Part shown: piece by piece, positions 6,616 to 64,000 of the stretch
Layout of the letters: each line of letters opens with the position of its first letter
Position numbering within the stretch: position 1 is the stretch's first letter
Source of the DNA: Dysidea avara
Lineage: Eukaryota; Porifera; Demospongiae; Dictyoceratida; Dysideidae
Assembly (NCBI RefSeq): GCF_963678975.1
Contig: NC_089279.1
Span: forward strand, 36,971,933 to 37,035,932
Reading direction: 5' to 3'
Length of the DNA: 64,000 nt
Program-made: the position numbers and the translations under genes
The notes under the pieces: model-generated
Told to the model about the DNA's origin: nothing
The model's input: the letters and a program-made list of their open reading frames with translations, nothing else
Databases searched by the model: none

Positions 6616-6744
6616 CAATTTTGGGGGCTATGCTGCTATACTATATTAGCTCTATGTTGTGTTCTAGTTTACTCAGCTAGAAATGCTTGTAAAGGTAGAC
6701 CATTGTAGCTAGGTGATCAGATGGCAAGGCTAGAAGACACTGAG

Positions 6745-6800: not shown

Positions 6801-6939
6801 TATGGTACGGAAAATCATATGGTACAAAATACACATATGGTATAGAACATGTACACACTGTGTGTATACACAACATTGTGAGCCATAGATGACATAGTGG
6901 AGATACACATTAAGTAATGTATTATTGGCAACACTGATG

Positions 6940-9140: not shown

Positions 9141-9143
9141 CGG

Positions 9144-9474: not shown

Positions 9475-9604
9475 CTGAAGACATTATGAATGCCTTTCAC
9501 AATGGGCTCTATGGGAGTAATACAACCGAAAAACAGTGTAGCTATCTGTCTCCGTAGGCTACCAGAAATAACAAATTCCTTTGAAGAGAAAGGAGGAATA
9601 TTCT

Positions 9605-12560
9605 GTACTTATGGAAGGGATGGTATATTTAGCGGAATGGCGGAAACAGTAGAATCATCATTTGCAGATTATGGACAGCCTTAGAACACCCACCTCCCGT
9701 TAGCTACTCACTGTAACATGTATAAATACAGCTACACAGAGCTCACCACAGGCTTTACAGGCTCACCGTGACTGATTACCACATTTTGGTGTTGAATGGT
9801 CAGGCTTAGTCTTGCGTAGGCATACTCTATTTTCTCGGGGTGGCGTTTACAGATTTTCAATTATAAGTGCCCCCCTTGATGGCGCTTCTAGTAACATGTG
9901 TCAAAATACGGGGTGTGAGGGTTGAGATATGACTACACTCTAAGAGTGTCACAGATGATGTTAAGCTGCAAGAAGACAGAAAATCGGTGCTACAAAGACC
10001 ACGAGCTTCAGTTATGGTGAGTTCTATGTAGCTGTATTTATATATGTTACAGTGAGTGGGTATTGGTAAAACCGGGAGGGGAGCGGGAGTGGGAGATTTC
10101 TTGGTAAAACCGGGACCGGGAGCTGGGAGATCATGTACACAATCACTACAAGCAACTGTTATTTTTGCACTAAAGATGGTTTATTGATGCAGAAGAGGAC
10201 TCATGCAAGTAGTCTCTCTTCCTTCCAAACATAAGATATTATAACAAGTGAAAAGTCTGCAAGTATAGCCTTAGAGCAACTAAAAAAAGATTGGGAATCA
10301 TGCTCCCAGAAAGTCACCCATACATCATTGTCTGCATTTTGTAGCTGTATGCTTCAAACTCCATGTGTGACTTTCATTGCTATACTAATCTTTGACCTGC
10401 TCCACTTCATGCTTTGCTACTTAATTGTTCTACTAAATCAAAATTTATCTTGGAAATAATTCTCATTTTGAGTTCTGTCCCGTGCATGCACAGTTCCTGA
10501 AGTGATGCATGCCGATGTGAACATTATATTCTATAAGTCCAATCCATTAATATTGTCAGACTCACTGTTGTCCTTCTCATGCTATGGCTCGTTCCACTGA
10601 CTTAATGATGGTAGCTATACTGTATTTAATGCATTTGCCTGGCAACTTCTTGTTCTTTATGAAATCCATCCTGAATGTGACCCAACTTGGAAAAGCAAAC
10701 AGTTAAAATGAGCAGTGAATAGCTACCATGGCACATAGTGAGCATCATTAAGAATTTGTAGCAAAGTTCACTATTTGTCACAGTATTCATTAGTTGTGAT
10801 TTTTAGGTACATCATCCTTTTTCAATTTGGTCAATATTTTCTCTTTTGTATAAATATAAGGCACTGAATATTTATCTATATCTTGTGTTAGATATTAACT
10901 TGATACCTTGAAGCATTCCAGAGATATGGCCAATGCATGTATATAGACAATGATACATGTTATTTATTTAAGAAAAAAAGGACGAAGAATGTAACTATCA
11001 GAAATCTCTTTTATATAATTATTAGATAGTACAGGAATGGAAATTTGTCCTCAAAATCATGGTCGCTACACCAAGCTAAGATAGATCATTTTCAGTCATC
11101 AGTGTTGCAGAGCAAGAATTGTCCACAATATACATGTAGTCATGTGTTAATAACATAATTGGAAGAAGTGATACCATAAAAGCAGCATTGAATGATTCAT
11201 TTACTTCAGACTCTCTTAATAAACATTTCAAAACTGTAGCAGTGATGTGTCACTTCATCACATCAATCTGCTAGCTGACAACTTTGCAATACCTGCTACT
11301 TCATGTGACACTAATCCATTCACTTTTGCTGAGATTTCTGAATCTTTAGTCCTCTCTCATCTGAACTCTATGGATCCTAGGAAGTCCACAGGTCCAGATG
11401 GCTCGTCTTAGGTTCCTGAAAGAGATAGACTGCTCCATTGGCTACCTTAAACTGTTAACGTTCATTGCAGAGTGGAGTTGTTCCTTCAGACAGGAAGTGC
11501 TCACATATACTCCAGTTCATAAAGGTGCATGGTGCTTTGAACAATCCTGGCAACTTCAGACCAATCTCTGTTGTGTCTGTTCTTGCTGTTTGTTTATTTC
11601 ATGTGTTTGTTCAGTCATTTTTATAATTTTCCTTAAGTTAATTGTTACATTTGTATACACGTATATTTGTATTGTGTGCATGTGTTAAGTTTTGTACTTG
11701 TTAGCTAGCTATGTTCATTAATTTTGTCTGCATTGTATGCTGTTCTGGCAAGGGAGAATGGTAGTTGCCAACTGTCAGAGACTCAGAGGGTAATTTATAA
11801 ATCAATCAATCAATCAAAACAGTCTGATAATTTAAGAAACTTTTATTGCTAACTCACAGAGAAAATTTCTTGCTGTAAAAACTCCAAATATTTATTGAAT
11901 TTATAAGCTAACTGTGAAAGTGCATGCACCGCCTGATCTAGCAACTGTCTACACAGCCAGAGCAACAATAACTTGGTAGAATAAAATCAGTGGAGCAGGT
12001 CAAATTAGAGTCTGGGTAAACTTATAGCAATGAAGGTCATACATGGAGTGAAGCATACAGCTACAAAAGGGAAGAAAATGATATGGGTGACATTCTGGGA
12101 GCATGATTCCCACCCAGCAAGATTTTTTTTAATTTGAAAGCACTAAGACTTTTCACCTTGTATATTAAAAAATACAACAACAAGCGACTGGCAGTCAGTG
12201 GCAGTTAAGAGACTGTTCTATAGAGTGGCCGGCTGACTGCTCTATTAGAGTATCTCGATCTTTTGTAAGTTCGTACTGATGATGATATCTCATGTTTTAA
12301 AGGAGGGGAGAGACTACTTGCATGAGTCCTCTTGTACATCAATAAACCATCTTTAGTGCAAAAATAACAGTTGCTTGTAGTGATTGTGTACGTGATCTCC
12401 CAGCTCCCGATCCTAGTTTTACCAAGAAATCTCCCGCTTTTACCAATACCCCAGTGAGTAGCTAACTGGTAGTGGGTGTTCTAAGACTGTCCATAATCTG
12501 TAAATGATGATTCTGCTGTTTCCGCCAATTCCGCCGTTCCGCTAAATATACTATCTCCTA
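9605..12560. mobile_element. Long inverted-repeat structure enclosing LINE debris
   Basis: About 9610-9715 is mirrored by about 12455-12560 (arms share GCAGATTATGGACAG-type sequence and TTAGCTACTCACT). About 10050-10250 is mirrored by about 12290-12440 (arms share AAGATGGTTTATTGATG and GATCTCCCAGCTCCC-type sequence). A 330-bp stretch at 9720-10045 interrupts the left arm only. The middle carries an old LINE fragment. This is either a large foldback element or two inverted copies of one element. Confidence 0.75.
11330..11820 (+). pseudogene. LINE reverse transcriptase fragment with tandem tail
   Basis: Read across frames, the plus strand gives LNSMDPRKSTGPDG, then FLKEI, then TPVHKG and NPGNFRPISVVSVLA, which are typical of the N-terminal fingers region of non-LTR reverse transcriptases. 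The frame is broken by several indels. The fragment is followed by a non-coding 3' region ending in ATCAATCAATCAATCA (about 11798-11818), the short tandem tail typical of CR1/L2/Jockey-type LINEs. It is a 5'-truncated dead insertion. Confidence 0.8.
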
Positions 12561-42854: not shown

Positions 42855-43415
42855 TTTGGGTCTAGCTTTGTTGACTCTTAATAGCTTTAGTCTAGCTTTG
42901 TTGGCTTCTTTCATTTTTAAAGCTTTAGTCTAGCTTTGTTGGCTTCTTTCATTTTTAAAGCTTTTCTAGCTTTGTTGGCTTCTTTTATTTTAAAGCTTTG
43001 TTGGTTTCTTTTATTTTAAAGCTTTAGTCTAGCTTTGTTGGCTTCTTTCATTTTTAAAGTTTTAGTCTAGCTTTGTTGGCTTCTTTTATTTTAAAGCTAT
43101 AGTCTAGCTTTGTTGGCTTCTTTCATTTTTAAAGTTTTAGTCTAGCTTTGTTGGCTTCTTTCATTCTTAAAGCTTCCCTAGCTTTGTTGGCTTCTTTTAT
43201 TTTAAAGCTTTGTTGGTTTCTTTCATTTTTAAAGCTTTAGTTCAGCTTTGTTGGCTTCCTTCATTTTTAAAGCTTTAGTCTAGCTTTGTTGGCTTCTTTC
43301 ATTCTTAAAGCTTTAGTCTAACTTTGTTGGTTTCTTTTATTTTTAAAGCTTAAGTCTAGCTTTGTTGGCTTCTTTTATTTTTAAAGCTTTGGTCTAGTTT
43401 TGTTGGCTTCTTAAT
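42855..43415 (+). repeat. Minisatellite of about 37-bp units, roughly 14 copies
   Basis: Unit core TAGCTTTGTTGGCTTCTTT plus CATTTTTAAAGCTTTAGTC. Some units are shortened by loss of the CTTTAGTCTAG part. Pyrimidine-rich on the plus strand. No coding sense. Confidence 0.95.
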
Positions 43416-44533: not shown

Positions 44534-47348
44534 CTAACAGATAATGATCAGTTTTGTTTGACATCCTCTCCTTTGTCTGTTCTTGTTAATTACTTCTTGT
44601 AGTGATCTAATCCTCTTCTTAACATCTTCAGTGTAACCATCAGAGGGTAGCCATAGCCATTCTAATGTGTCGTTATTGTTGAGGGCTTGTAGTAGACGTT
44701 GAGCAGCTTCTCCACTGATGTTGTTGCCCGTCATCCACAGCTGGACTAGTGATGTATTGTTCTTCATTGTAGTGGCAATGACATCACAAGCTTCATCAGT
44801 GATGAGATTGATGTGAATGTAGAGCCCCTTCAGTTTGTTACCTTTTGATATTGCAGTGAATAGGGTAATGGCTGATGGTGATGATAAGCTGGTACTCCAC
44901 ATGTGCAGTGTCACTAGCCTAGAGGAGGGATGGGTCAACATGTTGTAGAGAGCAGGGTCCTCTCCGATGGTGTGGTTACGAGTAATATCCAACACTTCCA
45001 CTCTACAGTGTATGGTGAGGTCATTAATGGAGGAAGAGGAAGATCTGGTGAAGCCATTAAACCCCAAGTCGAGTTCTTTAATACTGACGTCAGATGACAT
45101 CAGATCACGGTGAAGGACACGACAGCCATGATCCTGGATATGGCAGGAAGACAAGTTAAGCTTCTTCCACTCCTTGTGGGGTGAGCAGGTAAGGAAGAGT
45201 GTAACACACTCAACATCATAAACGGTTAGGCTACTCTTCTCAAGATTGATTACTTTATCATCGAAAGTTTTTCCTTGTTGTATAGAAGTGTAAAAGGCTT
45301 CGTCGTTGGCCTCATAGAAGCAGCGAAATAGTCGAAGACACTTCAGTTGATCCTTCAAGTATGTTTCAGCGATGGTGATCGTGTCGTCCCCTCCAGAGAG
45401 AAATTGTTTAAAAGCAGATCGCTGTCCCTTGGTAAGCGAGGTGTACATTGCAAACATGTTTGAATGAATATCGCTCCAGAACTTCGCTTCGAGCACTCGC
45501 AGCTCTTCGTCTGGTGGAAGCTGAGTGATATGATAAGCGGACAAGAACTCCTGAATGGAGAAATGGACAAAGTTAAATGTCATGGTTTTCCCAGCGAGCC
45601 CGAAGTGCTGAACAGCCTGTAGTAGTCCGTATCCGTTCAGAGCTCCTTCGATAGCTTCGATGCCTGGACAAGCTGCTCTCATCTCCTCCAAGGTAAAGAT
45701 TAGCTTGTTGTTATTAAGACCCTCAAGCGATAGTTTTGATAACTGCTGAACTATTGTATTATAGGGCTGGGTGAGTTTGGCTAGATCAGTGATGGTGTTA
45801 TCAAGAGGTTGACCAGACTTGGCAAGATGTCGACAGATGGTAAGACAGATGAAGTAATTGTAGAGTTGTGTAGAATTGCTAGGAAGGGGAATTCCCTGTT
45901 TGTATAGATAAATCAAGATTACCATATTGAAGGGGATGAAACACAGGCCATTGATAGTCAGATTATCTTCGAGATATTCGGTGAGCTCTTTGACTGCTTG
46001 TGGTAATACTTGTTTTATGAAATTTATTCTTTCTGTTTCAGTGAAGCCTAAGATATCTACTCTAAGCGTTGCCTGTTTGCGGAGATTTTCTGAGGCGTGT
46101 GGACGAGATGACACGATCAAGCCACATTTGGGTAGTACGCGACGTTCAAGAATTTTTGAGATCAAGCTATTTTTCTGAAACTCTGCTGGAAATTCATCGT
46201 AGCCATCCAAAAGGAAGACAAGATCCTTGCCACCATTCTGAAAAAGGTAATCGTCACAAGCGTCAGTGATCTGTGATGCTCTTCTGTACCCTACACAGAA
46301 CAACTGGAGGAGGTCATGGACTGATGTAGTTTGCTGTACAATGGGATCACGCAGACAGACAAGGAGAACAAACTTGAACACTTTTAATATTTGTTTATCA
46401 CCCCACCGATATGCAATTTCTTTTAGTAAAACAGATTTGCCAATACCGGGAAGACCTTCAACTAAGATAAATTGTGGTTCATCGTTCTTTTCTAGTGGGG
46501 CTAGGATTTGTTCAACATCTTTAGTAACAGTACTAGTATCAAGGACCTCTTGTAATGGCTGATAGCTAGGATGACGTTTGGGGACTGGCTGACTACTAGC
46601 TAGTGAAGCAATGTCACCTGTTTGTGTCAGTTTAGTGATGGCCAAGGCTTGTTGTAAGTTGTGATGTCCTTCATAGTGAATCAGTACGACAGGTGTGAAA
46701 TTCTTTGGCTGGTCCGGTGGCCAAGTGTCATCGTCAATCCTGAACCGTGCTTGTACATTAAGTTGGCCCACCATGTTAGACAACATGGAGACTCCTATCA
46801 ACAACAACACATAAAATGGAGCACACAATAATGTGTCCACTCTACCTTGATCAGTAGCCGTTGACTTGTCCATGTCAGGTTTGGAGGTCACTATAGTTAG
46901 TGAAGACAACACAATAGCTAGTTAATACAATTGTTTACCTACACATGTTGTACACACACAATATAGCTAGTCACCTTTATCAGGAGCTTGATCACTGGAC
47001 ACTGCAGGTGACTCAATAACTTTAAACAACTTCTCCCAACTAGCAGAGGGGTCCACTTCAAGCCACTCCTCCAACACAGCATCACAACAAGGTCTTGCTT
47101 TATCACGATTATCATATTTTATGATGTCAAGTGTTGCACTGGTTAGACCCAGTAGTGTTCCTATCATTCTCCAGTGAACAGCATAATTGGGGGTAATATG
47201 GTTATGAAGATCCTTCAGTAGTGGAGTACTGGTAGCTGTAGTATGCAGAGTCCGTATACTACACTATATTTATTATCCGGATATTAATATACTTACCCTT
47301 CTCAGGTGTTTTAAACTGGTTTAGTCCTTCATGATCACTTCGATCCAT
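44534..47348 (-). CDS. NLR-type receptor: Death domain, NACHT, LRRs (complete)
   Basis: Four exons: 47348-47297, 47235-46975, 46890-46846, 46794-44534. All phases agree (introns 61, 84 and 51 nt) and the 2619 nt encode 872 aa. Residues about 22-92 form a Death-fold domain (LLGLTSATLDII, PCCDAVLEEWL, SWEKLFKVI). NACHT follows: Walker A GLPGIGKS near residues 233-240, Walker B VFLLDGYDEF, sensor SSRPHA and a winged-helix-like part with FVHFSIQEFLSAYH. The C-terminus has RI-type leucine-rich repeats (KKLNLSSCHI, IKELDLGF, LEWLWLPS). Such Death/CARD-NACHT-LRR proteins are intracellular pattern receptors, much expanded in demosponges. The third intron is 51 nt and in frame, so retention would add a 17-residue hydrophobic piece. 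No signal peptide. The ligand is unknown. Confidence 0.93.
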
Positions 47349-47829: not shown

Positions 47830-49330
47830 AGTTCCCTGTCAGTTTGGCTTGAGGACAAAACATTCTTGTGAATCACAACTGTTCACTGTTACTGATGACT
47901 TTACCAAAGCATTAAATAACAAACTGCAAGATGTTGGTATATTAGATCTGTCCAAGGTATTTGATAAAGTTCCACGTAAAAGATAAGTTTGAATTGAGGG
48001 GTCATTCGCTTCTAGATATATCGTCGATGGTGGCTGGAAAAGTAGAAATTTATTTCACAAATGTAGAAATTTAATTTGAAATGTCCAACTTCAAACAACA
48101 GTTCTATCTATGCAATAGCTGAACTGTGAATCACTCAAACTAGCTGGGTATGTAATTGTACTCTGGTGAATCCTTTATAAGGTAAATTAGTTTAGTTTGT
48201 GTGCCAGCAGGCTTGTTATACCACACACCCGTTACAACCTGCCGAGTACACTGTGTACTGTTTGTGGAGTTATCAAGACTATATGAGGCATTTCTGCTGG
48301 CAAACCATTCAACCAGTTCCTTAACCAGCAAAAACCATTTTGTTCACTACTTTGACAGGAGTCAAAAGGTCAGAAATGTATTTGGAAAGGTGAAAATTTA
48401 TTTCAAAATGTGTAGAAATGCGGAAATTACATGCTCAGAGCTGAAATTTTGTCAATGAGATTTAGAGTGAAGGACCCCTCAAACTGAATCCTAGATGAGA
48501 TTTTGGGATGATTAGAGTGTTACTTGAGCAATTACTGTTGTCACTGATGGTTCCTCTTGTAAAGTCACATCAGGGGTATCAACCTGTAACACAAGGTTCC
48601 ATCTTGGGTCCTATCCTGTGTTTACTATAACATATCATAACTGAAGACACTGATACCCAGATGAAACTCTTCACAGACGATTGTTTGATATACAAAAAGT
48701 TATTCATTGACCACCAAACACTCCAACAGGGTCTAACAATATTGTCAAAAAATTGCTAATGGCTTTTAATGTTAGTAAAATAAATAAATTTTTAACCACA
48801 TAGCAAAAGTTTGTAATGAATGTTACCTCACTGACATCACTGAACAACACTTGTATCTCTTGGATTACATTAGACTGTCATGGAAACCACACAGTTTTAT
48901 TACAATGAAATCTTCAGCATTGTCCTAGACATCTTCGTGAGCTAACATAATATCAATTTGTGATACTCATAATAAAGTATTGTTCACCGATATGAGATCC
49001 TTATCACCAAACCCATATAAATCAAGTTGAGATGGTCCAGCATAGAGCTGGTAAACCCATGGAGAAGAAATCAATGTAACAGTGTCACACACATCCTTGA
49101 AAACTAACTTGCTAATGGTAAGACTGGTCTTACTAAAATACTACATGAGTTATTACCTTCCCATGAGATCATCTGTGTTGAGGACTTGATATTCACACAA
49201 CCTTCAACTAGCACCCTACAAAGAATTGATGTATACAAGTATTCCTTCCTACCAAGAACAGTACCAGATTGGAATAGGCTTGTTTGAGTCAAACAGTGTA
49301 GAAGTATTTACCGTAATTTGCTTTGTCTTT
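47830..49330 (+). pseudogene. Decayed LINE reverse transcriptase with nested MITE
   Basis: In pieces, the plus strand encodes CQFGLRTKHSCESQL, ILDLSKVFDKVP (RT motif A, with D), VVTDGSSCKVTSG, QGSILGPIL, LFTDDCLIY (catalytic DD pair) and, at 49190-49280, KYSFLPRTVPDWN, the typical end of the protein. Stops and frameshifts are frequent. A 490-bp MITE (47995-48484; ends TTGAGGGGTC and GACCCCTCAA) splits it after motif A. Confidence 0.85.
47995..48484. mobile_element. MITE with TTGAGGGGTC ends inside the LINE
   Basis: Left end TTGAGGGGTCATTC, right end GTGAAGGACCCCTCAA. Removing it joins the two LINE segments. A lone end of the same family is at about 44400. Confidence 0.75.
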
Positions 49331-49334
49331 ATGC

Positions 49335-49975
49335 AAAAAAAAATCGTGATGAAAATAGTTTCATATGATTTATATGAATGACTGCTCTATTAGAGTAGTT
49401 TGATCTTATGATGTAAATTCTAACTAGGTTCTGAATACACTGAACTATGACTAAACCAAGCACATGCAAGGTGTGTTGCTTAGCCGTAATCTGAACAGCT
49501 TACAGGTTGATCCACAACAAGTTCAGCCCAACTAGATGGTGCTAGCTATTTGCTCTCACGCTGGAATACTTTACACTAAATTTTTCTTTTGTTCACTGAT
49601 CAAGATTGTGGTAGTTGTGATGTCCAAGAGTACATGATAAAACTCCCTATTATTATCATCTACTCTTGGTCTAACTAATAAATGAAGTTCATTTATACTA
49701 ATATGTGATTTTGTGTGAAAAGTTTTCAAAACACATAAAATTTAACCTCAGTAGTAGCAGAGAAACATAAGGTGATCTGTGTAGTGTATGCATACGTGGT
49801 GTGGTGTGTGTGTGTGAGGGTCCATGTTATCAACCTCCTCATGGTTGCCCGGTAACATGCCACTCTGGTGGTGTGGCTAATGGCATTAGAAGCAGAAACC
49901 AGTTGTTTTTAAGCCAGAAAAACAGTATTTTTGAGTCAGTCATGAGTGAATCCATATAAATGCCATGGGATGCAT
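49335..49975. other. No gene seen
   Basis: Contains one CTGCTCTATTAGAGTAG motif (49382-49398) and a short GT run at about 49800-49815. Confidence 0.5.
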
Positions 49976-49979
49976 GTCC

Positions 49980-52900
49980 TTGGGTAGTGACCTAACTGGT
50001 CAAATATGGATATGTACACATCAACAACTACACAAACTATGATTACAAAGATGACAAGTGATACGTTCCATTCCTTTAGATTGGGGAATCCCCACCCTCT
50101 AATTGGTCACATAATCTCTAGTTGCTATCTTGAGCAGGTCTAGTTCATGTTCTAGCGATGTCATCATCTGGATCGTGTGATCTGTATCATACTGTAATGT
50201 GGATCACATGATCATCATGTGATACAGTAACAAACTAGCCATACCTTCCTTATCACACTCAGCACACCTTGCAGGGACAACCTAGCTGCAGACAAGTTGG
50301 AGTGGGTGGGGCTGTGTTCCCTGCACACTATGGGATATAATATCATGACATGGTCATCATGTACTTGTGTGGTTACCATGGGAATATTGTAATGATACAT
50401 CAACAATTTGTTTACACTTGTCAACATCTTTCTCCCACCCCACACTAAACTTCTTAATACTCCTCACAGCTTTTTGTAGCTCCATCACTACCTGTATATA
50501 TCATGTGTCTAACATCACCTCATATAATAATTACCTTCTCATAATTAGGACAATTAGCCTTGAGGTGCATGTGAGCACTCAACTGCCACACCTCCCCACT
50601 ACAGGTCACCTGATCAATAATGATGTCATTATCACATGATTAGATCATCACTGGATCACCTGAGCTGTAACTCTTGCTAATAATGTTGATACTTTATCAT
50701 GTAAACTGTTGTCGTCATAGCAACCACTGGTTGCTGCTTCCACCAGATGATGTAATATCTACTGAGAACATTAGTTACTATGGTAACCTTAATAGATCAC
50801 ATGATGCACCTCAACATCACAGAATTTCTCTTTCAAGTCTAATAGTCGATGGTATGCTGATATGGCTTCATTGTAGTGCCCTGTTTCTGTGCTAACCTGT
50901 ACTAGGGGTGGGGCTTGATCACATGAGCTCATTAACTACACCCACCAGCAAGTAATTCTCCCATATTCTCCAGTTGTCATAGCAACCCTTCACAGCCTCC
51001 AACAAACAGTGGAAAGCCTTCTCCCTATGATCAACATCAATATAATGTAGTAATTGGAGAATTCAGGTACAGTGATTTTTGCAACCACTCACTTTCCATC
51101 ATATTTTTAATGGGATGCTTAGATACCGCATAGGGGGAAAGTTTCGATGGGCAAAAGTTTTGTGGTAGAGGGAGAACAAACTTATTCACAGTAAAACTTT
51201 CGCGGTGGACAAAAGTATAACAGCGCCCACTCAAAGTGTTTAGCCGTGCACGTAAAAATGCATTTATCGATAAGTGGGCGTGGCTCAAGATGATTACTGG
51301 CACCTGACAATCGGTTAAAGTGGGTACATTGCATGTACACACAGTCACAGCAATGTACATGGTTTCATGCATGCCTTCAGACTGCGGCAACACACCTTAC
51401 TGAATGGGTGTGGCTCTGCATATGACTAGCTACAAACAGTGATGCACAATCCAAATAAGTGGGTGTGGCTCATGAAATAAGCTGGGCTGCTGTAGGACTT
51501 TCCACTTGGATTCTCATCAAAACTTTCCCCCTATATGGTATTCTAATATTTTTGACTATTTTCACAACTAAAATTTCATAAAAGATATCCCATTCACAAA
51601 ATTGGTGACATTCTATATACCTCAAACAATACCAAGTTGTGATATATACAACAAATGTAATGATGACAAGTAGAAGGGAATAGTAGGGATCACAACTAGT
51701 AGTGAAACAAGGGAGGTCACCTACACCTAAGATATACTAGTAGACAGTTAAAATGCTCAAAAGACACATTTGAACTTGATTCTACCCACCAAGATGTTGT
51801 GAAGGTGTAGTGAGGATGGTTTGTGGTTACTGAGAAAATACACACTTCCATGATCCCTAATATACAGTACATGATTACTAACTTTTCATTTCTCTTCAAA
51901 TGAACTGCTGATAAGTTGTTCCAGGCCTCAGCATTCTGTGGGGATCATGTGATCGTGACCTGACACACCCACAATATTATCTTACGTCACTATCCAACAA
52001 GACACACCTCCTAAATGCCTTCACTGCTAGATCGTGATTGGCTAGTTTTAATGCCGCATGTCCCAGTGAGAACCACACACCCTCCTAAACAAATCAATGA
52101 TATGTAGTTGATATTTAATCCCTACTTCAGTCTATACCCATGACTGAATTAGGAATTAAATGTTCACTAGTATATCTGCAGGTGTAGGCAACCATTGTTG
52201 TTTACCTACTTTTTTCAACGATCCCTAATCAAACTTAAAATTCCTAATTTTTCCTTATACTTGTTTGTTACATTAATATGACACACATACCAAATCAAAA
52301 GAAAGGATGTTCACCCCAGCTATCAATTACTGGCTCAAAGCTTTCAGCTAAGTTCAGCCCGATACATACCACTACAAACAAAGAACAGTAGAAGCACCTC
52401 TGCAACCAATCCAGTCACCGTGACACAGACAATTCACGAGCCCCAAATATCAATTACTGACTCAAAAAGTGATGACCATTACACTTTCAGTCCATCACAC
52501 AACATTACAAACAAACAACAGTGAGCACCTCTGCAATCAATCCAGTCACCACAGAAAATACAGATGATTCCTGTTAACAAATGTATCACGCTACCGTGAA
52601 TTGACACCTTGGGATTGTCAGCATAAAGAAATGGGACACAAAGGAGGACAAAAGTAAGTCAAGTCCATGATGTGTGCACTTTCACAACTCAGATCAAAGG
52701 AGCTGCCCGGGCTACATACAAAATGTAGTCAGGATACAACTGGGCAGTGATTATATAGACGTTGAGGTTGAAATCGATTGTAGGGATTAAACTCACGTGA
52801 TTAAGATGCACGAGTTGGATTTTGCTATGAAAACCACTCAGGCAGAGAGTTTTGTTATCCTTGGCATTCTACGGGTTGAAAAATGTTGGGCTAAGCTGAG

Positions 52901-53960
52901 CAAGAGCGCTATAACTTATTCAGCGATCGTTTATCCGCACGTTTTCGAATACAGAAATGTCCCCATCACGAAGCTACCACTCTGCATGGAGTAACCACTC
53001 TACAAGCAAGCTTACCTATCTAGGCCTTTAGTGAACTTTGTAATAGTTCCATAAACAATTCAATAGCACTAAATAAAACATTAAACTCATGTAACCAAAA
53101 TTCTCCGTGAATTCTCTAGGATATGTCTGTTTATTGTAACCAAACATAACCAGAATGTACTAGCTGCTGACCCATATCAAAAATGTTAGGTATGCATATA
53201 TAATACATCCAGTGGCTGCGCTCATACTGGCTTGGGTGATTGATCACCCTGTACAGGCTATCAGCCTGATAAGTGTTGCATTCAGGGTAATACTGAAGGC
53301 ACTTTTGGGCTTGGTTATACCTAACCAATACTGGCAAGGTGCCAGGATGGCATTGTGAAGCTGGTTTTAGGATAAGTTTTTAGGCCAGAAAAACCCCAAC
53401 CTCCATGATCCCTAATATACAGTACTACAGTACTGTATGATGACAACACATCTACTAACTTGTAGAGATGATATCGCTAACGACAACTGAAGACTCTCCA
53501 TACACTCTTTATACTATCATCAGTATCCATAGTAACTGATAAACATTACCATAGCAACATACCTTCTCCTTGTGCAAGTACAACATTCCTAATGAACGTT
53601 GAGCCCTACTGTTACGTTGCCTTGACAACTGCCATGCCTTCTGATAACAAACTTCTTCCTATTAATGACTACCATCAGAGATCACATGATCATCTTGTTA
53701 CCTGGGTAACATCACCAAGGAGACACCATAGTAATGGAGTCTCTTTTATCTTCAGTTGTTCACGAAGAACGCTTTCTGCCTATAGGGAGGAATTGTTACT
53801 ACAGTAACCAACAATTTACCATGTAAACCTTTCGTAGTCTGCCAACATTCTGCAGACACATCACAAGTCCATCCCATAATTGTAGCCGCTCATAGACAAG
53901 TAAAGCATCATTAGAACAACCCAACGACACCAAACAATTGGCTAGATCATGCTGGAGTGA
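49980..53960. repeat. Segmental duplication block B (intact TTC27 3' exons)
   Basis: Collinear with 60-3290. It lacks the hairpin found in block A at 571. It has its own replacement at about 52690-53275, in the R1 transposon region, where blocks A and C still carry the normal sequence. Confidence 0.9.
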
Positions 53961-56900
53961 GCTAAGATCACATGATCCATACAGTGGGTGTGGCTACTAC
54001 CTCAATGTTCCAGTGAGGAGAGAGAGGTAAACAATGAAATAGCCTCAGGCGATGTTTAGCCTGTGTGTAATATAACATACAGGTAAACAATGAAATAGCC
54101 TCAGGCAATGTTTAGCCTGTGTGTAATATAACATACAGGTAAACAATAGAATAGCCTCAGGCAATGTTTAGGCTGTGTGTAATATAACATACAGGTAAAC
54201 AATGAAATAGCCTCAGGCAATGTTTAGGCTGTGTGTAATATAACATACAGGTAAACAATGAAATAGCCTCAGGTGATGTTTAGCCTGTGTGTCATATAAC
54301 ATACAGGTAAACAATGAAATAGCCTCAGGTGATGTTTAGCCTGTGTGTCATATAACATGCAGGTAAACAATGAAATAGCCTCAGGCAATGTTTAGCCTGT
54401 GTGTAATATAACATACAGGTAAACAATGAAATAGCCTCAGGCAATGTTTAGCCTGTGTGTAATATAACATACAGGTAAACAATAGAATAGCCTCAGGTGA
54501 TGTTTAGCCTGTGTGTAATATAACATACAGGTAAACAATGAAATAGCCTCAGGCAATGTTTAGCCTGTGTGTCATACAACATACACAGTGTTGGAAGTAA
54601 CACGTTACTTATGTAACGCATTATGTATTATTACTTTTGTGGTAACTAAGTAGTATAACGAAATACGCTATAAAAACAGGTAATATAACTGAAGTTACTT
54701 TACTTACAAATGTAATGCGTTACCTAAGTAATATAGTTACTGTAACGAGTCTAATATTATGTAATATTATTACTACAAGTAACAAAGTTACTAATCTCAT
54801 TAGTAATCCACTGAGTAACACCTAGCCACAACGAAGTATTGAAGCCTACTGAATGAAGCTTATTTACCAGCTTCTTACTTATAACCAAGATTTGCACATT
54901 GTCCAACAACGCAATCATGTCACGTGATAAAGTGGTAGTTTCACACATGACAGCTTAAGGCTGTGGACACAAAGTAATATAATATGTAATATTATTATAG
55001 TTACTTTATTATATGGGTAATATGTCTAAATAGTTCAGTTGTAAATAACATGTAATATGTAACTAGTTACTTTTTAAAAGTAACTGTCCCAACACTGAAC
55101 ATACAAGTAAACAATGAAATAGCCTCAGGTAATGTTTGGCCTGTGTGTAATGTAACATACAGGTAAACAATGCAATAGCCTCAGGTAATGTTTGGCCTGT
55201 GTGTAATATAACATACAGGTAAACAATGCAATAGCCTCAGGCAATGTTTGGCCTGTGTGTAATATAACATACAGGTAAACAATGCAATAGCCTCAGGTAA
55301 TGTTTGGCCTGTGTGTAATATAACATACAGGTAAACAATGCAATAGCCTCAGGCAATGTTTGGCCTGTGTGTAATATAACATACAGGTAAACAATGCAAT
55401 AGCCTCAGGCAATGTTTGGCCTGTGTGTAATATAACATACAGGTAAACAATGAAATAGCCTCAGGCAATGTTTAGGCTGTGTGTAATATAACATACAGGT
55501 AAACAATGAAATAGCCTAAGGCAATGTGTAATATAACATACAGACAGAGTTGGGGGTAACGCATTACATATAACATTACTTTTACAGTAACGAGTAATAT
55601 AACGTGTTACATGACAAAGTAATGAGTAATATGTAACAGATATTACATACGAAAATTGTAACGAATGTAACATGTTACTTCCTTTTAAGGCGTATTGTAT
55701 CCAGGCACATGATTGATTGTATTCTTGGTCCAGACAAGACTGGAGATAGCGTTATAGGCATGGACAAAGAATGATAGTGTATGGGGAGTGCCCTTGAGGC
55801 TAAGATACAACAACAAAGTATGTATTTGTGGCTGAACTACACCAGAGAAAAACTTGTGTCACTTGTAGTTGTAGGCTGGTAACTTGTATTTAGAAGGTTG
55901 GACTTACTGTATAACAAGGGGGTGACACACAGGCACTCACTGTAGCAGGCCTGCCAACCTGGAAAGTAAAAAAATCTTGAGATTTCTGTACCTTTATTGT
56001 AGTATTGCAGTGTGTAGTAAAAAAAACTGGTAGATGCTATGCTGAGACCAAAAAAAAAAAGGTCTCAACTTTTTAAATTTGAAATCCGTGACATTCGTGC
56101 TATAAACCGTGACATTCTATCCAACGAAGGTTAGTGAAACCGTGAGAGTTAGCAGGCCTCAAAAACCGTGAGATTCGATCTACTGCTCTTGAGCAGGGTA
56201 GTGAAACCGTGAGACTCACGGTAAACCCGTGAGAGTTGGCAGGCCTGCTGTAGGTAGATCTGCAACAGTGGTCAAAATCTTGTATTGGAAATGGTGAATT
56301 TCACGAGGTGAGCACTGCTACCCACGCTATTCCCAGTTAATACCATACCTGCTGCATATACAATGAAGGAATTTGTCACTATGTACTAAACACGCATCAA
56401 CACTTATTGATGCTACATTGTTAACATAGATTCTAACCAATGAAATTGCAATTACAACTTTTTCACTGCTACCAATGAAATATGGGATAAATTTCACTGC
56501 TACTGTTGAGACTTTTGTATGGGCAGTGAAACAGGAAATAGTTCTGTTGCAAGTAATATGTAACTAGTTACTGTTAAATAACTGTCCCAACACTGCAGAG
56601 GCCAAACGTCACCTGAGGCTATTCCATTGTTTACCTGTATGCAGTGTTGGGGTCATTACACTAAAAATGTAACTAGTTACATGTTACTCGTTACTTTTAC
56701 GTGATGTAGCGTGCTACAGTTACACATTACTTACTGAAAAAAGTAACGAGTTACATATTACTGGCTACTCTGAGGGCTGTAACTAGTAATAATATTACAT
56801 GTTACATTTGTTCGTTACAAACTATAACAAGGGGGTGACACACAGGCACTCACTGTAGGTAGATCTGCAACCACGGTCAAAGTCATAAGTCAAAGGTCAA

Positions 56901-59900
56901 GGCCACTAAATTTGTGCCAAGTCAACGGTCAAGGGTGAAAATTCCAACCCACAATCGAAAAGTACTGAAATATCGTCGCTAGGTCACCAGTCAAAGATTG
57001 AAAAAGGCTCCTAGTCACAGGTCAAAGCGAAATTTCGGATCGGTCACACGTGGTATTTATCCCAAATTTCACTGCTACCCATGCTATTACTAGTACATAT
57101 TATATTACTTTGTGTCCGCAGCCTTAAGCTGTCACATGTGAAACTGCCACCTTATCACGTGACATGATTGCATTGTTGGACAATGTGCAAATCTTGGTTA
57201 TAAGTAAGAAGTTGGTGAATAAGCTTCATTCAGTAGGCTTCATTACTTCGTTGTGGCTAGGCGTTACTCAGTGGATTACTAACGAGATTAGTAACTTCGT
57301 TACTTGTAGTAATAATATTACATAATATTAGACTTGTTACAGTAACTATATTACTTAGGTAACGCATTACATTTTGTAAGTAAAGTAACTTGAGTTATAT
57401 TACCTGTTTTTATAGCGTATTTCGTTATAATACTTAATTACAACAAAAGTAATAAATGTTATGTAACGCGTTACCCCCAACACTGGGCCTCTGAGTAATA
57501 TAACATACAGGTAAACAATAGAATAGCCTCAGGTGATGTTTGACTTGTGTGTAATATAACATACAGGTAAACAATAGAATAGCCTCAGGTGATGTTTGAC
57601 TTGTGTGTAATATAACATACAGGTAATCAATGGAATAGCCTCAGGGGATGTTTGGCCTGTGTGTAATATAACATACAGGTAAACAATAGAATAGCCTCAG
57701 GGGATGTTTGGCCTGTGTGTAATATAACATACAGGTAATCAATGGAATAGCCTCAGGTAATGTTTGGCCTGTGTGTAATATAACATACAGGTAAACAATA
57801 GAATAGCCTCAGGGGATGTTTGGCCTGTGTGTAATATAACATACAGGTAATCAATGGAATAGCCTCAGGTAATGTTTGGCCTGTGTGTAATATAACATAC
57901 AGGTAAACAATGGAATAGCCTCAGGGGATGTTTGGCCTGTGTGTAATATAACATACAGGTAAACAATAGAATAGCCTCAGGGGATGTTTGGCCTGTGTGT
58001 AATATAACATACAGGTAATCAATGGAATAGCCTCAGGGGATGTTTGGCCTGTGTGTAATATAACATACAGGTGATTTAAGTAGTATTACACAACCAACAT
58101 AGTGACAATAACCTCTAGGGTGGGCTTTGGGGGCTGAACCCCCCCCCCCCCCCCCCCCCCCTTCACTTTTAGGCTTTACTTGATCAATATGCTGAGGATT
58201 ATAATGAAATTTTGTCTTAGCATAATTATCTGATCACTAATAATACAAATACTCATAAACCACTTTATAAACATCTTTCCAAGGTATTATCAGTGGATTT
58301 ATGGTAAAGTTTATGCAACAAGGACCCGGATCAGCATTGGAGGTGTACAAGATCGAGATACTCTAATAGAGCAGTCACCTAACTACTCTAATAGAACATT
58401 TAATGTAAGCATAATAGTTGGTTCTTGGTTTTCCAAATCTGCCTGCACCTATACATACAATGAAGTGCATTGGTCTGTTTAAAAGGCTTGTACATCTACT
58501 TGTGCAGTTATTACTGGTACCGGTATACTTAATTCAGGTACACAATTTCCATTGAAAATAGTCAAACTACTCTCAGATCCAATCTCGTATCATTCAAATT
58601 TCAAAATTTTCCAGTTTCGACATTATTATTCTATCATGCATGCGATTGTGAGAGGGTGCATCATGTACTTGGTTGTCTGAACCCTACCCAAACCTTTCCC
58701 TTAGCAAATGCTGCAGAGAGCCATATATATCTAAAGGCAGTATATAAATATCTACAGCAGAAATATACATTTTAGGTGGAAATGTCTCCAAATTGCTGTA
58801 TTTAGCATCTATTTTTCAAAAATTTCCTGGGGGCATGCCCCCAGACCCCCCTAGTTCCAGCATACTTCGCATGCTGGCAGGTGTACTTTGCACACCTCCA
58901 CCCCAAGAGATTAGTACCTTTATAAATCTAGATCCGCCTCTGTTATCATAAGTGACATGGTTAATTGCTAGTACAAAATGAAATTGGGTTCAGAGTAGTG
59001 ATGTGCAAAATGTGATATATCATGATAAAAAATTATATCATGATAAATTTTTTTATATCATGTGATATGATATAGAATCTTTATAATTATCGTGATATAA
59101 GCCATGGACTCTTGATTTTAGCTATAATTTTAGAAAAATGTACCCAAGATGTCATACTTTTTTTGATAAAAGAGCTTGCAATGTTGTATGCTAGTCATGT
59201 GCCATGTTGTATTGTACTTCTAGTACATCACTGCTACAAGTGTCATCAGTGTAAATACACTAGCTGAGTGATGAGTTGTATATCGTGATATATATATATA
59301 TCGTATCGTGATACATTCTGTGCAATAATCGTGATAGGAAAATATCCTATATCGTATACCACTAGTTCAGAGAAGCTAGTTGGGTGTTTAGTGTATATTG
59401 TGTCGAGGCAATAGTAATCTCAAGACACTGATACAGACACACCGACATACACACAGTCAAACAGACCTCTGGTTGCCGATCACTGAATGCTTTCATTAAC
59501 ACCTATTACATAATACAATTAAGAGATCACATGATCAGCCACACTCACTTCAAGTTGCATCATACAACGTTCCACTCTTCTACGGTTATTACTCTCTAAT
59601 TTACACCGCTGAGTCAGAGCAGCAACTAGCCCCGCCCAACAAAATGTCTGTCTTTGTTTCACTGCAACCTGCAGTTACAAGTGTAAGTCAGATATTCTAA
59701 TAGTTTCACTCACACTCAGATAAGCTTGTATTTCTTCAGATGTGATCTTGTGAGGAGGTGTGGTCTTGTATAGGTGTGTACTACATCATTATGACATCAT
59801 CAAGGGGGTGTGACCTAACTTGTGAGCTGGTCAGGTTTTTATGTATACATAATTATGGACAACTATCATAACCAGTTTAGCTAACACCACCCACCATTTT

Positions 59901-59947
59901 AGTAATTGAGACAGCAGAACAGATGTCACTTAGAGCAAACGTTGTTT
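50099..59947 (-). CDS. TTC27: Tetratricopeptide repeat protein 27 (C-terminal half; 5' exons not seen)
   Basis: Fifteen minus-strand exons join in phase: 59947-59895, 59764-59714, 59668-59549, 54060-54001, 53951-53829, 53779-53702, 53658-53563, 53513-53460, 52084-51986, 51935-51883, 51024-50946, 50896-50810, 50758-50660, 50609-50535, 50491-50377, then 50327-50245 and 50191-50099 (TAG), seventeen in all with the last two. Landmarks known from animal TTC27 appear in order: RRRVERCM, LFHCLPLSPHW, LLWCLLGDV, YQKAWQLSRQRNSRAQRS, GVWFSLGHA, NAEAWNNLS, WRIWENYLL, YNEAISAYHRLLDL, TCSGEVWQLSAH, SLQGVLSVIRK. TTC27 is a poorly characterised conserved TPR protein. Most introns are about 40-60 nt; the one at 54061-59548 is 5.5 kb and filled by an exon-derived minisatellite and MITEs. 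Unlike copies A and C, no stop or frameshift is seen. The N-terminal half is probably beyond 64000. Confidence 0.92.
52690..53275. other. Block-B-specific replacement in a TTC27 intron
   Basis: Sequence here has no counterpart in blocks A or C. A 65-codon plus-strand frame (52797-52994) has no recognisable domain. Confidence 0.5.
54020..54577 (-). repeat. Exon-derived 56-bp minisatellite, array 1 (about 10 units)
   Basis: On the minus strand each unit is a 20-nt stretch GTATGTTATATTACACACAG followed by 36 nt that read AKHCLRLFHCLP in the TTC27 frame. That is exactly the head of the TTC27 exon at 54060-54001 (AKHRLRLFHCLP then LSPHW) with its 3' splice site. The unit next to the exon is the working one. 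Units here differ mainly at CAGGCAA / CAGGTGA. Confidence 0.93.
54586..55097. mobile_element. 512-bp hAT-like MITE (hAT-N2) in the minisatellite
   Basis: Perfect target duplication AACATACA (54578-54585; 55098-55105), which is part of the repeat unit. Ends CAGTGTTGG and CCAACACTG. The interior is GTAAC/GTTAC-rich. Confidence 0.94.
55098..55544 (-). repeat. Exon-derived minisatellite, array 2 (about 8 units)
   Basis: Same 56-bp unit. Most units here have ATTGCATTG where array 1 has ATTTCATTG (minus strand), so array 2 has been homogenised separately. Confidence 0.92.
55545..56640. mobile_element. Composite of hAT-N1 pieces with a nested CAGGCCTGCCAAC MITE
   Basis: 55545-55918 is an inverted copy of the right half of hAT-N1 (compare 38560-38919). 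At 55946-56247 is a separate MITE with ends CAGGCCTGCCAAC and GTTGGCAGGCCTG, and CTGTAG just outside each end; the uninterrupted target is visible at 56845-56860. The interior of that MITE contains repeated CCGTGAGA. The rest reaches CTGTCCCAACACTG at about 56595. Confidence 0.8.
56595..56639 (+). repeat. Single minisatellite unit in inverted orientation
   Basis: GAGGCCAAACGTCACCTGAG then GCTATTCCATTGTTTACCTG on the plus strand is the minisatellite unit in the opposite orientation to arrays 1-3. It lies between two hAT ends. Confidence 0.85.
56641..57486. mobile_element. Chimeric hAT element (hAT-N1 left part joined to inverted hAT-N2)
   Basis: Begins CAGTGTTGGGGTC like hAT-N1 (56641-56825), continues through AAAGTCA/GGTCAAAGG-type repeats, and from about 57090 is the reverse complement of hAT-N2 (54586-55097), ending CCCCCAACACTG. 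The combination fits recombination between two inverted hAT copies. Confidence 0.75.
57487..58073 (-). repeat. Exon-derived minisatellite, array 3 (about 10 units)
   Basis: Same unit, with variants CAGGGGATG and GGTAATCAATGG. In the latter the exon-head frame (minus strand) gains CAT-TGA, a stop. Acceptor-like ACACAG is kept in every unit inspected. Confidence 0.92.
58138..58162 (+). repeat. Poly-C tract (about 23)
   Basis: ACC then an uninterrupted C run followed by TTCAC. Length may be affected by sequencing. Confidence 0.9.
58165..58985. other. No gene seen
   Basis: Contains two adjacent minus-strand copies of the TGTTCTATTAGAGTA motif (58351-58400). CTAGATCCGCCTCTG near 58930 looks like a repeat end. 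No supported exon. Confidence 0.5.
58996..59364. mobile_element. 369-bp hAT-like MITE with ATATCATGATAT palindromes
   Basis: Perfect 8-bp target duplication GTTCAGAG (58988-58995; 59365-59372). Ends TAGTGATGTG and TATACCACTA. Same type as 9144-9474 and 24377-24786. It sits in the large TTC27 intron. Confidence 0.92.
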
Positions 59948-59949
59948 CT

Positions 59950-61180
59950 GGAAAACAGCATAGTAAAACTGCTAGTCCCTGTGGGTGTGTACTGGTCCCT
60001 TGTGGGTGGGTGTGGTCTCTTGTGGGCGTGTGCAGTATCTTGTGGGTGTGTGTGTGTGCTGGGCAGTAGTCTGGCTGTGAGGCTGCTGTACACTCCATGA
60101 GACAACTTTTCTCATCTTCGGATGTTGTTTGGATGATGCATCAAATACATTCAACTGTTTGAATGGTCAGACAACATTGCGCAATACTGACACTATGTCC
60201 ATCATTATCTACCAATTTATACATTGGAGGTGAAACACTGCCACTATCAGAGAAGGGTACAACTCAGGGGGATCCCCTTGGCAATGCCCATCTATGCTTT
60301 GGGAGTTGTTCCTTTACTTAGACCCTTTTCATGTTTATTACACCATAGATACTATACTAATAACACCGGATTGGCCATGCTATTAACCAAGCAGGTTGTT
60401 CAAGTTTAGAAACGACAATGATAACGTTATGTTTTACCGAAGCATAACCAAACACATGTAACTCATGTTAGCTTCATGGTACAGAAAAGATATTCTTACT
60501 GTCCATGACATGGTAAGGTGAATCCATTGGAGTTTTCCTGCCATCTTGGCATTTCCTTTTGCACTCGGCCATCATGTGCATCAGGGGTTGTTGTTCCTCC
60601 TCTGGTCATCCCCGTAAGGGTCATATACCAACCTCAGTTGACCTAGCACTGGGGGAGGGATGCCTCAGGGTTGTCTAAGCCCCCTTACAGTTACAGCATG
60701 GTGGCCATTAGGGCCAGTTCTTCTATCCTTTAAAAATAAAGAAGAAGCGCCTCTGTAATCAATCCATTGTAGGGAAGCCACCACACAGCAAATCAACACC
60801 TTGGGCTGTCAACAAAAATAATTGAAAGTAAGTCCATACTGCGGTAAGCCAAAAGGAACCTGTCGGACTGAAGTGACATTAACAGTGAAAAAATCAAGCA
60901 CATAGCCTTAGTTGTTATTGTGTTATGTTTGTCTGAAGGCATTCAGTTAGTCAGTCAGTACAAAAAATCATTGAAAAATATATATTGTACTTTACGTGGG
61001 AGGATCAAAGCGATGCTGCGTATCATATTGTCCATACAGTACTAATCAGCTACATAACTGTACTGTATGAGTCATACAGTACAGTTATGCAGCTAATTGG
61101 GCAAATACAGTACAGTTATGTGGAGAATTTATTTAAGGAATGTTATGTAAACAACACACTGTAAATCGCTAAAATCTTTT
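59950..61180. other. Mostly gene-free; RT scrap and repeat debris
   Basis: The plus strand at about 60246-60330 encodes a degraded reverse transcriptase motif (EKGTTQGDP, then after a one-base insertion MPIYALGVVPLLRP). 60740-60970 is an R1 body fragment. An inverted pair TACAGTACAGTTATG / CATAACTGTACTGTATG lies at about 61045-61125. GTGGGTGTG repeats at 60000-60055. No TTC27 exon beyond 59947 was recognised. Confidence 0.5.
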
Positions 61181-61859
61181 GTAACATTAATATGACTGGT
61201 AAACCCACACATACCACATCAAAAGAAAGGATGGTGCCAGAGTTAGTGTTTTCGTCTGCACATGCACCCCAGTTATCAATTACTGGCTCAAAGCTTTCAG
61301 CTAAGTTCAGCCTGATACATACCACTACAAACAAAGAACAGTGAACACCTCTGCAACCAATCCAGTCACCACAGAAAATACAGATGATTCCTGTTTACAA
61401 ATGTATCACGCTACCGTGAATTGACACCTTGGGATGTCAGCATAAAGAAATGGGACACAAAGGAGGACAAAGGTAAGTCAAGTCCATGATGTGTGTATTG
61501 TACATACTGTGGTATACCAAGAGGCACGTTTCAGGATGAAGTGACATCAAACAAAGAATATAATCAAGCCTGTAGCCTTACTAGCTATCAAGTTACGCTT
61601 GCCTGAAGGAATCAGTCAAGGCAGTTATCAGTAGAAATTCCATTGAATATTCCTTTTTAAAAAAATTTGTAACAATCTATTGGAAACATTTAGGGTAATA
61701 CTGAAGGAACTTTTGGGCTTGGTTATACCTAACCAACACTGACAAGGTGCCAGGATGGTATTGTGAAGCTGGTTTTAGGATAATTTTAGGTCAGAAAACC
61801 CCAAACCTCCATGATCCCTAATATACAGTACTACAGTACCGTATGATGACAACACAGCC

Positions 61860-62350
61860 ACTAACTTGTAGAGATGATATCGCTAGTGACAACTGAAGAC
61901 TCTCCATACACTCTTTATACTATCATCAGTATCCATAGTAACCGATAAACATCACCATAGCAACACACCTTCTCCTTGTGCAAGTATAATATTCCTAATT
62001 AACGTTGAGCCCTACTGTTACGTTGCCTTGACAACTGCCATGCCTTCTGATAACAAACTTCTTCCTATTACTGACCACTATAGGAGATCATCATTTTGTT
62101 ACCTGGGTAGCATCACCAAGGAGACACCATAGTAACGGAGTCTCTTTTGTTTTCCGTTGTTCACAAAGAACGCTTTCTGCCTATAGGGAGGAATTGTTAC
62201 TACAGCAACTGACAATTTACCATGTAAACCTTTCATGGTCTGCCAACATTCTACAGACACATCACAAGTCCATCCCATAATTGTAGCCGCTCATAGATAA
62301 GCAAAGCATCATTAGAACAACCCAATGACACCAGACAATTGGCTAGATCA
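61860..62350 (-). pseudogene. TTC27 exons, third copy, broken
   Basis: Carries counterparts of the exons at 53513-53460, 53658-53563, 53779-53702 and 53951-53829. The YQKAWQLSRQRNSRAQR exon has TAA in place of TCA directly after that segment (stop at 61999-62001). The sequence containing the acceptor of the HDLANC exon (block B near 53951) is replaced by different sequence, as in block A. Confidence 0.85.
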
Positions 62351-62359
62351 CATGATCAT

Positions 62360-62870
62360 AGCATAATGACATAAAAAGTTAAAATTTTGAAAAGTAGACA
62401 AATTTAGTGTGCCAACTACCTGTTTCTGTAGTGCTGTCTTCTGGTCCATCATATCTGATTTCCACCATGTGACCTGTAGACAAGTCAGCCTGACATCTTG
62501 TCCATAAATATTTGGAGTGGCTTTGTGAAATGTTGGTTCAAAAGGTCTTGAAATAAGCAGTGAACATGGATATCATTAGAGTGAGACACTATGACGTGTT
62601 GGTAGCTGGATCCAACCACCACTTGCTCAATCCAGGCTAGAAAGATAGCAACAGATACTTTCACATTGTCACACTAGAGCAACACACGTAAGGATATACT
62701 CTAAACATTACACATACTCTGTTGTAAAGGTGACTTGACTGTAGCTAACCTCATGATACGGTGTACTGTAGTTGTTGGATTCAGCACAAATGCTAGTCCA
62801 GGATTATCTATCTCGTCGTAACAACACGGACAAGGTCCAAATTCAATCTATAAAATCAAGAAATATGACC
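62360..62870 (-). other. Unidentified exon-like segments (copy C)
   Basis: Counterpart of 3300-3790. Here the frame KSDMMDQKTALQKQ runs to the GT donor, while block A favours another frame because of a one-base difference. Product unknown. Confidence 0.3.
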
Positions 62871-63417
62871 CAACTATGGAATCACATGTGTTAATGTCAA
62901 ACAATGCTAATACATTGGATTGTCATGTTAAGTATTGCATTTACAACACAGAACACTCCTTAACACAACCAGTTAATACTAAACTGACAATAATTCCCCA
63001 TTGATTGGTAACTGAACTGATCCCTGTTAACCATGTAACTTTATGACACATCTACTTAAAGAGTGAATAATGTGATAAAGGAGAGTGTCCCACTGTTGAA
63101 TAGCTTGTCTGGTACAAGATAGTTAACTGATTTAATCCCTCACTGTCAAATTTGTAGAGACTCCAATTTTACAGCTTCTAAACTGCTACAATTTACACAC
63201 CATACCATATAATCCACATATCTACTTACTTGCTATAGAACAAGGAATTTGATTACTGAGTTGCTGTTTGCTGGTATGTTGAGAAGAATCTTGTCCTTGA
63301 TAGTAGCTCACTGGTGAGGTTTGGTGTTGTAGAGTAATAATAGTCACTCCTACACAATCATGAGATGTGGACATACAAGGAGGATCAGTCCATTCATTGG
63401 ATAGATGGTTATATTGT

Positions 63418-63720
63418 TCAGTGATAAGATATGTAAGTGCTACCATCATTACCACCCACAGCATACAGGAAGCCATCAAGTACTGCTAGTACAAGACCAC
63501 TACGACAAGATAATATGTGACACACTTCAGTCCACTGGTCCATACTGGGATCACAACACTCTACAGAGTTGTAACGTGATGTGCTGTTGCAACCTCCCAC
63601 AACATATATCTTGCCACCTGTCACAGCTGCTCCAGGTACTTACGATGTCCTTACATTGGAACAATAGTTCTCCACTCTTCAATGGAGAGGTACTCCAATA
63701 GCAAACAAGTACCCTACAAT
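63418..63720 (-). pseudogene. Kelch-repeat protein fragment (copy C)
   Basis: Matches 4340-4640 with the same two blades and the same internal frame break. Only a few substitutions separate it from copy A, so the kelch fragment was duplicated together with TTC27 exons fairly recently. Confidence 0.75.
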
Positions 63721-64000
63721 GACACAAATAATATCTAGCATTAGCATTATTAGACATGCAAGCTACTCTAAGATTGATGTGTATATAGCAATTAATTGTG
63801 CAATAAATTCTTTTTAAACTGTAGTTTGCCAAATCTTTGCTATTGAATGAGACATTGCCTACTGAGATGAAGTAGGAAAACATACCATGGCAGAGATGTT
63901 ATGGTGACTTTATGAGTTCTAATGAATAATTCAGTAGTGAACGTATATTATCTATAGCATTGTTTAATTGTTAAGTGTGTTGTAGCCACTCACTATTTAC

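Follow-up and report, generated by a model that had tools for sequence, protein, structure and literature searches.

What does it mean for a gene when one intron holds some two dozen near-copies of its own 3' splice site, each joined to the head of the exon that follows? This question is raised by a 64,000-nt stretch of the genome of the sponge Dysidea avara, here called the window (C8:36971933-37035932; assembly of 550.8 Mb in 108 contigs). The published chromosome-level genome of the species, with 575 Mb in 162 scaffolds, may be a different assembly (PMC12909245). The gene concerned lies on the minus strand and is TTC27, the best protein match being 'tetratricopeptide repeat protein 27-like isoform X2 [Dysidea avara]' (P0001, RefSeq). 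TTC27 has been described as a chaperone for eEF2 folding (PMC13049181). The intron before its exon E3 is occupied by a 56-bp minisatellite, which probably arose in place through duplication of the E3 intron/exon border and is now most likely a tolerated splicing hazard.

Anatomy of the array and its gene copies

Each unit crosses the intron/exon border, consisting of 20 nt of intron ending ACACACAG and of 36 nt that match the opening 12 codons of E3. This composition, an exon head with its own 3' splice site, had been described in a first-pass annotation of the DNA and is confirmed. Tandem Repeats Finder likewise returns three 56-bp arrays with 94-97% matches, which correspond to the three blocks in Table 1. 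Scanning with the exon's own unit yields 27 full minus-strand units with 0-6 mismatches, the last of which (54082-54027) is the exon itself and holds the real acceptor of E3. The other 26 are intronic, each 1-6 mismatches from the exon unit; in one shuffled window, which served as control, the best place had 25 mismatches. The array is thus real, but the earlier figure of about 28 intronic units is reached only with partial units. About 2.5 kb of the array span is inserted mobile-element-like DNA rather than units.

In the gene model, 16 exons (E1-E16) with GT/AG borders keep the frame open across 1350 nt in each of three gene copies, A, B and C, of which B is the copy in the window. Twelve of the 15 introns measure 43-53 nt, and the remaining three 858, 1375 and 5406 nt, the last being the array intron. 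The donor preceding the array had been placed at 59549; the true donor lies at 59466, with the microexon E2 between the two. P0001 joins E2, E3 and E4 directly and without insert, and copy C equals it across E1-E13 with zero mismatches, which agrees with the earlier claim that E3 starts at the exonic part of the unit. Copy A differs from P0001 at 2 residues and copy B at 7. Further downstream, P0001 appears to pass from E13 into E15 in another frame, E14 seemingly being skipped, and its X2 label may reflect that.

An 82-nt query made of exon and unit has at least 79 matches in the genome, all in the TTC27 cluster of C8, comprising three arrays and one array-free exon fragment. Genome match counts for this query and for the left flank of the array are lower bounds. 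Three matches span all 82 nt, one per gene copy, and the left flank has at least three matches, at copies A, B and C. In this lower-bound search, unrelated loci gave no match to the unit (79/79 matches in the TTC27 cluster). Copies A (36929126), B and C (37079006) contain 25, 26 and 19 full intronic units, arranged in blocks of 10/1/14, 10/7/9 and 12/1/6, respectively. Among these 70 intronic units, 66 end with ACCTGTATGT in register and one more does so shifted by a 1-nt insertion. The acceptor AG is in register in 63 of 69 units counted; the other six read ACAAGT, with the AG one base further on.

Sequence pieces resembling one CAGTGTTGGG-type end of an insert in the array occur at 13 places within the stretches holding copies A-C and a degenerate copy D. 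A match to an inverted unit is present in copies A and C as well, as it is in the window beside the CAGTGTTGGG-ended insert. These inverted copies suggest an old inversion inside the array.

Where they align over long pieces, the copies are ~94-99% alike, and all fall inside 150 kb of a single contig. Mis-assembled haplotypes could produce such a likeness and thereby feign gene copies or array lengths. This explanation is very unlikely, as the copies differ in upstream content as well as in block spacing and unit order, the stretches A-D are free of N, and the array is seen three times. Regarding upstream content, the N-terminal exons (residues 1-291) were seen at copy C only, and not in the fetched stretches upstream of E1 in copies A (~14 kb) and B (~34 kb). 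Two short, weak matches to residues 15-39 occur in the B stretch, at window position 14400 (E = 0.005) and 6.6 kb past the window end (E = 0.033). Because the N-terminal exons were seen only at copy C, the TTC27 of the window is probably a duplicate truncated at its 5' end, whose C-terminal half is intact.

Origin and turnover of the array

The age of the exon head decides in which direction the array was derived. A protein search found 179 homologues, of which 120 were listed and underlie the alignment counts; 101 of them, including P0001, span the segment, while 19 were left out with fewer than 34 of 38 positions filled. The 12 unit codons are gap-free in 100 of the 101, no homologue has an insertion between the end of E2 and the end of the unit (0/101), and unit codon 4 is Arg in 99. 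Since it is alignable across homologues, the exon head is old coding sequence, and the array derives from the exon.

The reverse course would be that a satellite landed beside the gene and that its last unit was recruited as exon head. The splitting of the array by mobile-element-like sequence would fit such an arrival. It is already contradicted, however, by an exon head that aligns across TTC27 homologues with a near-invariant Arg and by the lack of matches elsewhere in the genome in the lower-bound search; on these grounds it was rejected, and it is extremely unlikely. Duplication of the whole exon was rejected as well, because the units are without its 3' part: the last 24 nt and the donor of E3 are missing from them, and the exon with both its splice sites has not been duplicated.

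The preferred origin is therefore a duplication of the border itself. ACCT is common to the left edge of the array (...TTAAATCACCTGTATG) and to the exon (...TTTACCTCTCTC). In an ancestor with a single unit, the two ACCT motifs would have stood 56 bp apart, and they are the likely site of slippage. A 56-bp stretch over the E3 border would have been tandemly duplicated between the ACCT near the end of the intron and the one inside the exon. The resulting minisatellite would then have grown by ordinary repeat turnover and been split by mobile-element-like insertions. Later, the whole locus would have been copied at least twice, the array length continuing to change in each copy.

Divergence within the array is graded. 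In the proximal blocks, nearest the exon, the mean number of mismatches is 0.71 (A), 2.33 (B) and 1.00 (C), and in the distal blocks, farthest from it, 4.50-4.58. Proximal intronic units identical to the exon unit over all 56 bp number 9/14 in A, 0/9 in B and 3/5 in C, where one unit with a 1-nt insertion was excluded. E3, whose sequence is identical in the three copies, has the Arg codon CGC in all of them, but only 14 of the 70 intronic units do (0/26 in the window). Other forms of codon 4 in the units are CCC (18), TGC (16), CAC (11), TAC (9), TCC (1) and CCA (1), of which TGC and CAC could be CpG decay products of CGC. Since Arg is kept in the exons and lost in most units, the exon copy was preserved and the intronic ones drifted. 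An exchange that carried unit sequence into the exon would in many cases harm this near-invariant codon.

Predicted splicing consequences of the intronic acceptors

In predicted messages that run from E2 into an intronic acceptor and on without further splicing as far as E3, a premature stop appears in 69 of 70 cases (A 25/25, window 26/26, C 18/19); for the six units lacking an in-register AG, the AG one base later was used. The exception is the unit nearest E3 in copy C, which carries an extra T (57 bp instead of 56) and gives an open insertion of 19 residues. It is the only unit of the 70 with an indel. A message in which a decoy is used would thus almost always gain a premature stop, and the array is therefore best regarded as a tolerated hazard and not as a working device. 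The unit acceptors match the real one exactly or almost exactly and the unit donor is weak, so that the units would act as mostly silent decoys. Exon and intron definition would leave E3 as the mainly chosen acceptor, because in the last copy alone the exon continues for another 24 nt to a genuine donor, with a short intron of 49 nt after it. Upstream of the E3 AG, at a distance of 24 nt, there is a branch-point-like TTTAC in exon-derived sequence common to unit junctions. The first unit has no match to the simple branch-point motif YTNAY, from which the sponge may differ.

The first-pass annotation had proposed a splice buffer, a source of isoforms or a slow poison for the gene, and these proposals are partly supported as possibilities. 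Since a premature stop arises in 69/70 units when the unit donor is not used, the poison is a better fit than the source of isoforms, and there is no evidence for a buffer role. As a source of isoforms, the 36-nt units would serve as in-frame cassettes, each adding a 12-residue repeat. Splicing in a single unit leaves the frame open in 50 of the 70 units, so that the earlier statement that inclusion keeps the frame holds for these and fails for the others. GTATGT does follow nearly every unit, much as the annotation had stated for CCT-GTATGT, but its plausibility as a donor is weakened. Donor and acceptor matrices were built from 14-15 sites of the TTC27 gene, each real donor being left out in turn, and the scores are rough because they rest on so few sites. 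With the matrix of 15 donors, CCT|GTATGT scores 1.78: each of the 15 real donors scores higher (3.52-8.16), and 59% of the 739 GT sites of the gene region score lower. Splicing between adjacent units would moreover leave an intron of 20 nt, whereas the shortest intron of the gene model has 43 nt. A single border duplication has yielded a working new intron in potato (PMC4974935), which lends the cassettes a precedent. Together with the insert-free RefSeq protein and the absence of insertions at the E2/E3 border in 101 homologues, the weak donor and the short spacers nevertheless make in-frame cassettes a very improbable use of the array.

Alternatively, the units may form a regulatory sink for splice sites, competing with the true acceptor so that the use of decoys, followed by decay of the message, sets TTC27 output, perhaps in answer to spliceosome supply. 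Such a sink would be suited by the 26 acceptors that match the true one fully or closely and by the premature stop in 69/70 read-throughs, and yeast two-hybrid work reports binding of human TTC27 to EFTUD2, a GTPase of the spliceosome (PMC13049181). This binding is the only basis for the idea of a splicing feedback. Array size differs between the copies, however, the window copy appears truncated and constraint on the acceptors is not significant, and a regulatory sink is accordingly quite unlikely.

Selection on the unit acceptors was tested in two ways, neither result being significant. Polymorphic columns number 7/22 in the acceptor part vs 10/34 in the exonic part (P = 1.0 in 66 units; P = 0.40 in 69), and a one-sided diversity test of the acceptor vs the exonic part gives P = 0.064.

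Several points weigh against the hazard reading and its proposed origin. The E2-E3 junction on which it builds is that of the RefSeq gene model. The acceptor of E3 is only fair: its score of 4.73 is exceeded by 41 and equalled by 18 of the 273 AG sites in the intron. Mismatches to the exon unit amount to 0.9% in the acceptor part vs 8.2% in the exonic part (66 units) and are thus ninefold rarer in the former; such uniformity might point to selection acting on the acceptors. As no intact array-free copy was found, the single-unit ancestor is an inferred one: copy D, the only array-free copy with E3, is broken inside the exon, and the partial copies at window 62350, window 3284 and L043:4886 start within E4, none of them containing a single-unit ancestor. 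Finally, if the array were purely neutral, the in-frame nearest decoy of copy C would be unexpected. It is striking in being the nearest decoy, in the only copy where N-terminal exons were seen, but it was noticed after the fact. It could indicate that the units do serve as competing acceptors and that selection is starting to tame the array, the in-frame decoy of copy C adding 19 residues, and this is considered quite unlikely. If it were so, decoy use could couple TTC27 output to spliceosome quality, because TTC27 is reported to bind EFTUD2.

Related systems and the surrounding locus

The array has partial counterparts among known systems. Tandem exon duplication can produce clusters of mutually exclusive exons, as in Dscam. 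Such clusters resemble the array in that many tandem acceptors derived from one exon lie within one intron. The TTC27 units differ from them in being the first 36 of 60 nt without the exon's donor, and are hence not whole exons.

A closer likeness is found in the variable number tandem repeat (VNTR) of human ABCA7 intron 18, which opens with the GT of the exon 18 donor and whose length is reported to correlate with skipping of exon 19 (PMC5954066). Both arrays touch an exon border, repeat a candidate splice site in their units and vary in length, and in both the use of a site one unit on shifts the frame (PMC5954066). In ABCA7 it is the donor that is repeated, and the available part of the report mentions no exon sequence in the unit, whereas TTC27 repeats an acceptor with 36 nt of coding exon (PMC5954066). 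Furthermore, it is for ABCA7 that exon skipping (exon 19) rises with VNTR length (PMC5954066). By analogy, the TTC27 array may be viewed as the acceptor-side mirror of the ABCA7 VNTR.

In the potato RdRp gene, an intron is reported to have been gained by one intron/exon border duplication, the new intron being covered by 106 RNA-seq reads (PMC4974935). There, too, the duplicate spans intron tail, acceptor and exon head, and every copy carries its own 3' splice signals (PMC4974935). The potato gene differs in having one copy and a spliced intron, compared with 26 copies, a weak donor and 20-nt spacers in TTC27 (PMC4974935). It may thus be seen as the single-copy form of the same event. Decoy exons tied to intron retention or detention, such as that of OGT, form a further group (PMC12017769, PMC12061472). 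They share with the array non-productive intronic splice sites that could engage the spliceosome. Decoy exons of the OGT type are single regulated elements, whereas the TTC27 array is a variable minisatellite. No precedent for an acceptor-side minisatellite of exon heads was recognised in the literature from titles and abstract openings, most subscription papers being out of reach.

The locus offers a natural test of how the spliceosome chooses one acceptor among about two dozen near-identical ones in a row, and three paralogous arrays of different lengths in one genome provide a built-in comparison. It also indicates that border duplication, a known route of intron gain, can escalate into a minisatellite and leave an intron both long and hazardous.

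Concerning the duplicates, pN and pS (proportions of nonsynonymous and synonymous differences) are 0.0085 and 0.0176 for A-B, 0.0056 and 0.0071 for A-C, and 0.0122 and 0.0177 for B-C. The pN/pS ratios of 0.48-0.80 between copies do not demonstrate constraint, the numbers being too few. Between gene copies, short introns that have the same length show a difference of 0.5-0.6% (earlier exon model). A 267-residue part of the protein has 44 matches, all on C8 at 36.86-37.31 Mb, several of them broken fragments. Searches for other relatives gave 0 Rfam matches (window 49000-64000) and 48 listed sequences in the PDB, where the named ones are tetratricopeptide repeat (TPR) proteins, designed proteins or fusions and none is named TTC27; in a further protein search, P0001 was the sole match.

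Table 1. Features of the TTC27 array intron and its exons (window coordinates).
Feature	Position	Strand	Remarks
TTC27 exon E1	59549..59668	-	another short exon just upstream, end near 59714 by eye (homology from 59779)
TTC27 microexon E2, 36 nt, VLMKAFSDRQPE	59467..59502	-	true exon preceding the array intron
Array left edge, original intron with ACCT matching exon ACCT	58069..58110	-	putative birth breakpoints
Distal block, 10 full intronic units and one partial	57486..58072	-	most diverged, mean 4.5/56 mismatches
Insert splitting the array, termini CAGTGTTGGG...CCCAACACTG	56642..57485	.	approximate borders, by eye
Single inverted unit copy (exonic part)	56601..56636	+	between mobile-element-like ends
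Middle block, 7 full intronic units and partial sequence	55098..55527	-	
Proximal block, 9 intronic units and terminal unit	54025..54585	-	terminal unit is E3 acceptor and head
TTC27 exon E3, AKHRLRLFHCLPLSPHWNIE	54001..54060	-	exonic part of the unit taken from its first 36 nt
TTC27 exon E4	53829..53951	-	begins 49 nt past E3
TTC27 exons E5-E16 and stop codon, open frame	50099..53779	-	E10 51024-50946, E11 50896-50810

Degenerate partial copies of TTC27 lie on the minus strand of the window at 61687-62350 (E4-E7) and at 226-3284 (E4-E12 and parts of E14-E16), both without E1-E3. A fragment resembling the one at 61687-62350 exists in copy A; similarity of the window to copy C stops at 61174, and the fragment lies beyond that point. 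Another partial copy, L043:1451-4886, has E8-E16 at 98.9-100% identity and diverged E4-E7 (85-94%), an unevenness that suggests mosaic duplication or gene conversion. Copy D (L027, ~5724-9976) is degenerate and array-free, contains E3 from its 11th base and adjoins unrelated sequence.

Elsewhere in the window, the minus strand at 44534-46912 holds a 792-codon open reading frame with NACHT and leucine-rich repeat matches, which is NLR-like. A second minisatellite, with a period of 38 bp and ~15 copies, occupies 42878-43412, and a fragment of a Kelch-like protein was recognised by eye at ~63640-63400 on the minus strand.

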